Source: Paenibacillus taihuensis (GTDB lineage: Bacteria > Bacillota > Bacilli > Paenibacillales > Paenibacillaceae). From it: a DNA stretch of 64,000 bases. The stretch is from NCBI RefSeq assembly GCF_003386535.1, contig NZ_QTTN01000012.1:103223-167222 (forward strand). Reading direction: 5' to 3'. Shown here one piece after another: positions 356 to 27,970 of the stretch (its first letter is position 1; each line of letters starts with the position of its first letter). The translations under genes were made by a program, and so were the position numbers. The notes beneath the pieces are model-generated. The model ran no database searches, was not told where the DNA came from, and worked only from the letters and a program-made list of their open reading frames with translations.

Positions 356-546
356 GGCTATAATGGAAAAATCCACTCATTTTTGCTGAAATCGGCCTTT
401 TTGCTTGGCTATATTGGAGTTTTCCATTCATTTTCTGCGGAATCGCCTATTTCGGGGCGTTTAGAGGTAAAAATGAGTGGATATTTCCAACATAGGCTGC
501 ATTTTTCTGCGACTGAACCGTTTCTTAGTGGAAATATCCAATATAG
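356..546. repeat. Intergenic repeat family A, locus 1 (four units)
   Basis: The 361-bp gap between the first gene (+) and the methyltransferase (-) holds four copies of a unit whose core is CTATAwTGG, a short A/T stretch, then TCCACTCATTTT. Units 1 and 2 (356-384 and 407-434) are direct and start 51 bp apart. Units 3 and 4 (469-496 and 526-546) are inverted. The TGGA...TCCA core can fold back on itself. The same arrangement recurs at 8009-8199 and 27782-27970. No gene is believable here; the short ORFs that cross it are translations of the repeat. Confidence 0.85.
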
Positions 547-8008: not shown

Positions 8009-8199
8009 CTATAATGGATTTATCCACTCATTTTGCCCATAAACGACCGTTTTTGATAGCTATAATGGATTTATCCACTCATTTTCAGCAGAATGGGCCG
8101 AAAATGCTTGTTTCGCGCGTCAATGAGTGGATTTTTCCATCATAGCCTGCCCAAACGGGGCATTTAGCCACTTTCCGTAGGATAAATCCACCATAGCCT
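8009..8199. repeat. Intergenic repeat family A, locus 2 (four units)
   Basis: This is the cleanest copy of the family. Units 1 and 2 (8009-8034 and 8060-8085) are identical across CTATAATGG, ATTTA and TCCACTCATTTT, and start 51 bp apart. Inverted units follow at 8122-8147 and 8178-8199. The locus sits between icmF (+) and a chemoreceptor gene (-), so again between converging genes. Apart from this array, the icmF terminator and the 11-bp tandem repeat beside it, the 352-bp gap holds nothing. Confidence 0.88.
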
Positions 8200-8209
8200 G
8201 GCGCCAGTC

Positions 8210-8286
8210 CGCACACCCGCCTCACACCCGCCTCACACCCGCCTCACACCCGCCTCACACCCGCCTCACACCCGCCTCACACCCGC
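8210..8286. repeat. 11-bp tandem repeat, seven copies
   Basis: The unit CTCACACCCGC is repeated exactly six times from 8221 to 8286, preceded by one variant copy (8210-8220). It is C-rich on the plus strand and lies about 20 bp past the 3' end of the chemoreceptor gene. It is a likely site for copy-number change between strains. Confidence 0.95.
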
Positions 8287-8304
8287 CTCATAAACAGGCT
8301 AGAC

Positions 8305-27600: not shown

Positions 27601-27650
27601 TTTTGCTTGTTCGAAGAGCTTAGGACCCATGCACCTTGTGCACCTCGCAA

Positions 27651-27760
27651 CCCCCGAAACCCCCGAAACCCCCGAAACCCAGCAGTCCGCACCCCGCACC
27701 TCCAGCACCTCCAGCACCTCCTCCAGCACCTCCGCCGCCACACCCGTTCCCACCCCGCAC
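27651..27760. repeat. C-rich tandem repeats (9-mers)
   Basis: Three copies of CCCCCGAAA (27651-27677) are followed by copies of CTCCAGCAC (27700-27708, 27709-27717, 27721-27729). Pro/Thr-rich ORFs across this stretch are by-products of the repeat and are not called as genes. Confidence 0.85.
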
Positions 27761-27781
27761 CTCCAGCCGTCCGCCAACAAA

Positions 27782-27970
27782 GCTATACTGGATATTTCCA
27801 CTCATTTTGATCCAAATGAGCGGTTTTGCTCGGCTATATTGGATTTATCCGGTCATTTTCGGCAAAAAGGGCGAAATTAGACTATTTGAGGCCGAAATGA
27901 ATGGATTTTTCCACTATAGCTCTCCAATTCCAGCAAAACAGTCATCCTATATTGGATATATCCACTATAG
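27782..27970. repeat. Intergenic repeat family A, locus 3 (four units)
   Basis: Direct units at 27782-27808 and 27832-27860 start 50-51 bp apart; an inverted unit lies at 27894-27920; a self-complementary unit lies at 27947-27970. The site is again between converging genes (permease 2 and the alpha-xylosidase). With the C-rich repeats it fills the 475-bp gap, which otherwise holds only the two terminators. Confidence 0.85.

Follow-up and report, generated by a model that had tools for sequence, protein, structure and literature searches.

Helically phased palindrome arrays at gene ends in Paenibacillus taihuensis and other Paenibacillaceae

Why does a short palindromic repeat recur in a fixed array between converging genes of Paenibacillus taihuensis? 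The original prediction, made for the 64-kb stretch of DNA analysed here (the window), placed such arrays at 356-546, 8009-8199 and 27782-27970, each with two direct units followed by inverted units on a 51-bp step. The palindrome cores were located at all three places and the layout was seen in 3/3 arrays, while a unit scan of the window found no fourth one. According to the gene calls of the window each array lies between genes that face one another.

The three elements are about 190 bp long and have their canonical orientation on the minus strand. Element 1 (357..546) matches the sequence profile R1, described below, at C12:103579-103768 and has a peak of 10.12-bp A/T phasing at 356. Its palindrome cores occupy 364..375 (unit 1, TGGA-WWWW-TCCA type), 415..426 (unit 2, whose N4 contains one G), 478..489 (unit 3, with inverted arms) and 529..540 (unit 4). 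Element 2 (8009..8197; R1 match at C12:111231-111418, phasing peak at 8009) carries units 1 to 4 with cores at 8015..8026, 8066..8077, 8128..8139 and 8179..8190. The last of these has one variant letter (AGGA) and escaped the unit scan; it is found in the 51-bp register. In element 3 (27782..27970; R1 match at C12:131004-131192, phasing peak at 27790) the four cores are at 27789..27800, 27840..27851 (a TCCG variant), 27902..27913 and 27953..27964, the fourth unit being symmetric. Core spacing is 51/63/51 bp in element 1 and 51/62/51 bp in elements 2 and 3, and one core letter varies in 2/12 of these cores of TGGA-N4-TCCA type. Directly beside element 2 (8209-8300) there are about seven head-to-tail copies of the 11-bp unit CCTCACACCCG. 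C-rich short repeats of 9-12 bp occupy positions 27650-27767, between the stop codon of the left gene (27555) and element 3.

Several known types of signal were compared with the units. As originally claimed, they feature no long T tract and separate terminator-like hairpins are present nearby, and an intrinsic terminator was rejected. Some units read TTATCCA, but a DnaA-box reading was dropped because many cores are AAAA or TTTT. The window has no Rfam match at gathering level, and we found no description of the element family in the open-licence literature.

The repeat is abundant outside the window. In the P. taihuensis genome (6.79 Mb in 85 contigs) the unit core TATANTGGANNNNTCCA, searched with at most one mismatch, occurs 180 + 183 times compared to 9 + 4 for a reversed control pattern, and its presence is therefore not due to chance. 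The family consists of ~190-bp elements with four GGA-N4-TCC palindromes at 51/62/51 bp, in which GGA and TCC are near-invariant. Of the four units in 29 oriented rows, an outer one forms a symmetric palindrome of CTATAn...nTATAG type and the remaining three combine a CTATA arm with a TCATTTT arm opposite it; these asymmetric arms give the element a direction. R1, a sequence-only profile, draws on 27 arrays out of an initial collection of 42; 11 arrays off the exact register or near an edge were left out, as were 4 partial ones, by hand. It has at least 171 matches in the genome, both strands counted. A modular scan of 80 genome stretches plus the window gives 87 hits, of which 81 score 40 or more; the highest score in its reversed-sequence control, run on 20 of the 81 sources, is 10.2. 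The exact 51/62/51 register is kept by all four cores in only 49 of the 81 elements.

The copies of P. taihuensis have a median pairwise identity of 54% among 31 rows. Spacer identity is 44%, compared to 26% in the flanks; the spacers thus share ancestry and the copies are not independent. The occurrence of elements near contig ends raised the idea that rRNA genes could be adjacent, and no rRNA match was found among 10 sources. Comparison of 8 contig ends revealed two pairs with identical repeats and one other end bearing a transposase.

The position of the elements relative to genes was assessed with gene calls from a simple codon model, which identifies a gene on both sides of 73 of the 81 P. 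taihuensis elements. These divide into 41 convergent, 31 co-directional and 1 divergent, while 420 element-free gaps of the same stretches comprise 28, 324 and 68, respectively. The expected excess in convergent gaps over chance is thus present (41/73 against 28/420), but the claim that the arrays are always convergent holds for the three of the window and fails across the genome. In co-directional gaps 21/31 elements are closer to the upstream stop codon, and a single element of the 81 overlaps an ORF. The 92 elements from other genomes, a tally from which 18 edge loci, 5 loci inside called ORFs, 3 off-lineage hits and 6 duplicates were removed, are distributed as 27 convergent, 58 co-directional and 7 divergent, compared to 68, 337 and 81 of 486 gaps. 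The convergent bias is weaker in these genomes (27/92 versus 68/486 gaps). Because of the counts in P. taihuensis and in other genomes the convergent-only rule is replaced by a gene-end preference: gene 3' ends are strongly enriched, convergent gaps are preferred and divergent gaps are avoided.

The element is also periodic at the scale of the DNA helix. In 27 oriented copies the A/T fraction swings from ~0 to 1 along the element with a period near 10 bp, its spectral power reaching 4.4 compared to at most 0.06 in the measured flank, and the swing survives masking of all units. The A/T period of the 49 register-exact elements is 10.12 bp (bootstrap 10.11-10.13) and that of their spacers alone is 10.10 bp (bootstrap 10.08-10.12), both intervals being too narrow because the resampled copies are related. 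Spacer-only phasing is significant one by one in 49/49 four-core elements. Lesser spacer-only spectral peaks at 8.5-8.75 and about 12.25 bp, which also pass the column shuffle, are taken as probable side lobes of masking. A blind 10.12-bp scan of the window has its top three peaks at 27790, 8009 and 356, which are the three arrays. The same scan of the P. taihuensis stretches, with 628,166 other overlapping windows as background, places 74/81 elements above the 99.9th percentile of these windows and 14/81 above their maximum. The sole phasing peak above 0.33 outside an element in these stretches is found at L039:7433.

Part of this pattern is inherited. Some spacer columns are A or T in 49/49 copies yet split between the two letters, as in a column with 43% A and 57% T, and differences that keep the A/T or G/C class amount to 40.4% in spacers and 33.8% in flanks. 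Spacer information per column is 0.27 bits for letters and 0.29 bits for classes; letters as well as classes are informative, and shared ancestry therefore contributes.

Sequence periods of 10-10.5 bp go with wrapped DNA in eukaryotes and archaea, and bacterial genomes usually have a period of ~11 bp; periods above 10.5 bp are associated with plectonemic DNA and those below 10.5 bp with solenoidal DNA (PMC4132750). The A/T period of the element stays below 10.5 bp across more than 100 bp, as expected of a solenoidal or wrapping signal. The element resembles nucleosome-positioning DNA in having a periodicity in the 10-10.5 bp range, but differs from it in being bacterial, in its sequence-specific palindromes at fixed steps and in having no histone assigned.

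Bending was modelled with wedge angles and with a plain A/T-G/C model, each element being compared to 20 of its own shuffles. In the wedge model the bend is above all 20 shuffles in 35/49 elements at 10.12 and in 4/49 at 10.53. The plain model places 22/49 above the shuffles at 10.5 and 49/49 at 10.0-10.3. At relaxed twist no increase in static curvature is seen, with 2/49 elements above shuffles. The phasing appears tuned to overtwisted, or left-handedly wrapped, DNA because the modelled bend rises near 10.12 relative to the relaxed repeat.

The explanation that we favour, tentatively and at somewhat less than an even chance, is that the element acts at gene ends as a DNA bend or wrap gated by torsion. 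Relaxed, its DNA would be little bent, while overtwisting to about 10.1 bp per turn would create a coherent bend. RNA polymerase builds positive supercoils ahead of itself, and positive supercoiling is strongest where genes converge. By fixing a positive supercoil at its apex, the element in its bent or wrapped state would absorb this twist, and it may in this way have a role in plectoneme placement between converging genes. Placement of plectonemes by DNA sequence has reportedly been published before. Alternatively, the four palindromes, which are on one helix face because their spacing corresponds to 5, 6 and 5 turns, would seat a dimeric nucleoid protein. A period below 10.5 bp can also be read as a left-handed nucleosome-like wrap storing negative supercoils, which would be released under positive torsion, giving the same buffering role. 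Architecture, period, phase, gene-end position and orthologous spacing of the element were obtained directly. Bending in the cell, a link to positive torsion and a bound protein are what these features suggest.

Gyrase is another candidate for this location. PMC6379681 describes positive supercoiling ahead of RNA polymerases, the action of gyrase downstream of transcribed genes and BIME-2 elements as gyrase targets; the E. coli gyrase motif given there covers 130 bp, with phased G/C of period 10.75 bp and a 36-bp central part. The element features likewise more than 100 bp of helically phased G/C, symmetric about its centre and tied to gene ends. This is the right place and the right kind of signal for a preferred gyrase site, BIME-2-like or a strong site, recruited to remove positive supercoils. 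However, its period is 10.12 bp (10.11-10.13) and a gyrase-type G/C periodicity of 10.75 bp was rejected; when the blind scan of the window is repeated at 10.75 or 11.0 bp, 0/3 arrays are among the six top peaks. Fixed palindromes, which the element has, are lacking in the degenerate gyrase motif, and the periodicity of the element continues through its centre where the motif has the 36-bp central part. No paper on gyrase between convergent genes came up in the open-licence literature. We regard a gyrase site as very improbable.

A different possibility is that the element acts as RNA, its transcribed inverted units pairing as a long hairpin that would end, shield or process the 3' ends of converging transcripts. 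The folding-energy z score has a mean of -7.0 and is below -2 in 50/50 strands from 25 of the 49 register-exact P. taihuensis elements, and good folds, with z from -3.0 to -13.2, are also obtained for the arrays of P. radicis, P. gorillae, G542, UBA6304 and P. alkaliterrae. Weak folds are found, however, in the tandems of NEAU-GSW1 (z -5.7 to 0.0) and in P. macerans (-3.5 to -1.2). Helices in the element RNA covary no more than shuffled ones in 27 sequences (score 0.103 versus 0.104, paired cells amounting to 76.9% versus 77.2%), and pairing of the N4 cores of units 2 and 3 falls below that of shuffled partners (z -3.0). A terminator-like hairpin is found between the stop codon and the element at 30/104 element-facing gene ends, compared to 67/239 ends without element, and at 4/6 in the window; in addition, an RNA device leaves the 10.1-bp A/T phase unexplained. 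Such a device is given a small probability. Pairing of the ++ with the -- half, as a long-range hairpin or cruciform, was also rejected, complementarity being high yet no better than with shuffled partners. The structure under selection that had been proposed at DNA or RNA level is thus supported for DNA, by 51/62/51 spacing across lineages and orthologues and a 10.1-bp spacer phase, while for RNA strong folding energies come without covariation.

The frame of the element is found in other species, in combination with different arms. R1 has matches in the distant relatives G001 and G018 (same genus), G028 (same family) and G044 (another family of the same order), and under stricter filters it matches 5/59 genomes, P. 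taihuensis included. The G018 elements have other arms (AATAAn...nTTATT) on a 51/62/51 step, with a middle step of 61 at one locus, and those of G044 have N5 cores at 51-52/62-63/51. The exact two-unit pattern is found in 1/398 genomes of the phylum, that of P. taihuensis, only 7 of the 398 being from its family. A looser three-core pattern yields at least one hit in 56/147 family genomes, mostly single hits, and identifies clear families in G461, G542, G534, G564, G033, G512 and G556. A contig scan of 84,980 species gives at least 82 loci; among the loci listed, 79/82 are from Paenibacillus, Fontibacillus or Paenibacillaceae (16 named species or assemblies) and 3/82 are isolated hits outside Paenibacillaceae. 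The search of genome and relatives that was suggested with the original prediction thus places the family outside the window, both in P. taihuensis and in other Paenibacillaceae. Long direct tandems of period 51 without the ++-- layout are present in P. radicis (L213), P. gorillae, NEAU-GSW1 (L280) and G542 (L310, L312).

Length and phase are conserved in these relatives. Four-core arrays span 175 or 176 bp in 24/24 cases, with 165-187 bp allowed, from six groups (UBA6304, P. vini, P. selenitireducens, P. marchantiophytorum, P. macerans and Fontibacillus) whose fitted A/T periods are 10.06-10.38. Measured from the core, the A/T phase of the spacers is within 66 degrees of one value in 23/24 Paenibacillaceae groups. 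This test, which covers neither G028 nor G044, is weak for single-module groups, and its P. selenitireducens and G461 groups represent a single genome. The phase is significant in 14/15 groups with at least three distinct modules, and the 3 off-lineage pattern hits lack the shared phase. The arms differ between lineages, local dyad symmetry being retained in P. radicis, P. gorillae and G018.

This retention of symmetry while arms change would suit an array of operator sites bound by a dimeric, sequence-specific nucleoid protein, Lrp-type or another wrapper, which would set chromosome structure or block read-through with no special role for positive torsion. The palindromic cores with near-invariant GGA/TCC and the 5/6/5-turn spacing that sets all sites on one face are consistent with such an array. 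LrpC and proteins of the Lrp type are DNA-wrapping proteins, and AsnC/Lrp-type proteins are encoded in 9/9 genomes tested; their presence says little because AsnC proteins are widespread, being found also in 11/14 control genomes. The arms past the core are, however, asymmetric in 3/4 P. taihuensis units and in NEAU-GSW1, and no candidate protein is tied to the element. An operator array is in our opinion rather improbable.

Orthologous sites, identified by Blast of all loci, show how the element changes with time. In three P. vini/UBA6304 pairs the elements are 78-81% identical with 1-5 gap columns in about 193, while their flanks have 24-52 gap columns per 100 and an identity of 62-85% of aligned columns. 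The step is unchanged to within 1 bp in the three pairs, in two of which the alignment sets offsetting one-base gaps inside one spacer. A Fontibacillus pair keeps steps of 50/62/51 and 51/62/51 in a poor alignment with 35 gap columns. P. oralis and P. antibioticophila (L239, L290) have an identical two-core array at an orthologous site with about 96% identity over 2.8 kb. In G018, a stretch homologous to that of P. taihuensis is adjoined by an element at one of four loci (L162) and by a remnant with a single core at another (L165). Only 28/120 spacer substitutions in four orthologous pairs keep the A/T-or-G/C class, and class changes in three pairs are found in 14/83 columns at A/T peaks, 24/116 at nodes and 21/94 at G/C peaks. 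Class changes are not clearly rarer at A/T peaks, and both results speak against selection on phase.

The main rival explanation is a selfish REP-like palindrome, spread by some enzyme and tolerated only at promoter-free gene 3' ends, whose phasing and step would reflect the needs of that enzyme and not a host function. Among the P. selenitireducens (G461) arrays listed, 13/15 are near-identical and at different sites (L295-L300, L302-L307, L309), probably as a result of recent dispersal. Near-identical dispersed copies, looked for as a trait of MITEs and other IS-derived mobile repeats, are seen in this species, against the median identity of 54% in P. taihuensis. In one orthologous gap of P. 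macerans (L266) the aligned flanks are 124 bp apart with no core between them, where P. taihuensis L045 has ~575 bp and four cores; copies are thus also gained and lost. The nearly empty divergent gaps (1/73) are also in line with a selfish repeat.

A further argument of this kind comes from a repeated insert of P. taihuensis. Its end is present in 14 exact copies, and in 14/14 the half core WWWTCCA adjoins it; a 15th site, with one mismatch, has no WWWTCCA next to the insert end. The copies (loci L315-L328) are distributed over contigs C10, C11 (two), C16, C24, C33, C37, C47, C49, C52, C55, C56 and C60 (two), most of them within about 350 bases of a contig end. The insert is presumably an insertion sequence, of a family without match, a name given with reserve because the 67-amino-acid ORF of the insert end matches no Pfam or NCBIfam model. 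A DDE transposase (PF01609) is also encoded at another contig end, just upstream of a unit. REP palindromes are targets of insertion sequences (PMC1525189 and PMC2817692), and the element serves similarly, at a fixed point in the 14 exact copies, as an insertion target like the REPs of PMC1525189.

The element has other traits of REP/BIME repeats, as a short extragenic palindrome of high copy number found in composite arrays in both orientations. It is distinguished from them by a fixed 5/6/5-turn step with a 10.1-bp A/T phase across spacers and by lineage-specific arms on a constant frame. The REP-associated transposase (RAYT, Y1_Tnp PF01797), whose search had been recommended, was not found in the P. 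taihuensis genome or in 15/17 others, so that 2/18 genomes tested have any. The proposal of a REP-like mobile palindrome is thus sustained by dispersal, extragenic position and use as an insertion target, but not by the transposase. REP/BIME is the closest system by outward traits, and the element works partly like a REP/BIME; it is not called one because this transposase was not found. The selfish explanation has also to account for a step kept in orthologous copies, for a 175-176 bp span in 24/24 arrays from other species and for a spacer phase common to many species. We consider it unlikely, but a serious contender.

The torsion-gated bend or wrap can be given a more specific form, in which the Paenibacillaceae element would be a sequence-encoded sensor of positive supercoiling. 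It would be nearly straight when relaxed or underwound, overtwisting by converging polymerases would make it snap to a tight bend or wrap, and its 5/6/5-turn frame and 10.1-bp A/T phasing would be kept while lineages repeatedly swap arms and spacers. We consider this more specific form unlikely. If true, bacteria would, without histones, hard-wire torsional buffers at the sites of positive supercoiling by transcription. The element would then offer a clean natural test of whether sequence alone places supercoils of one sign, its period of 10.12 bp differing both from that of gyrase sites (10.75 bp) and from that of bacterial genomes in general (~11 bp). Even if the element is merely selfish, the helical frame of this repeat outlives its own sequence, which would be an unusual constraint for any mobility enzyme.
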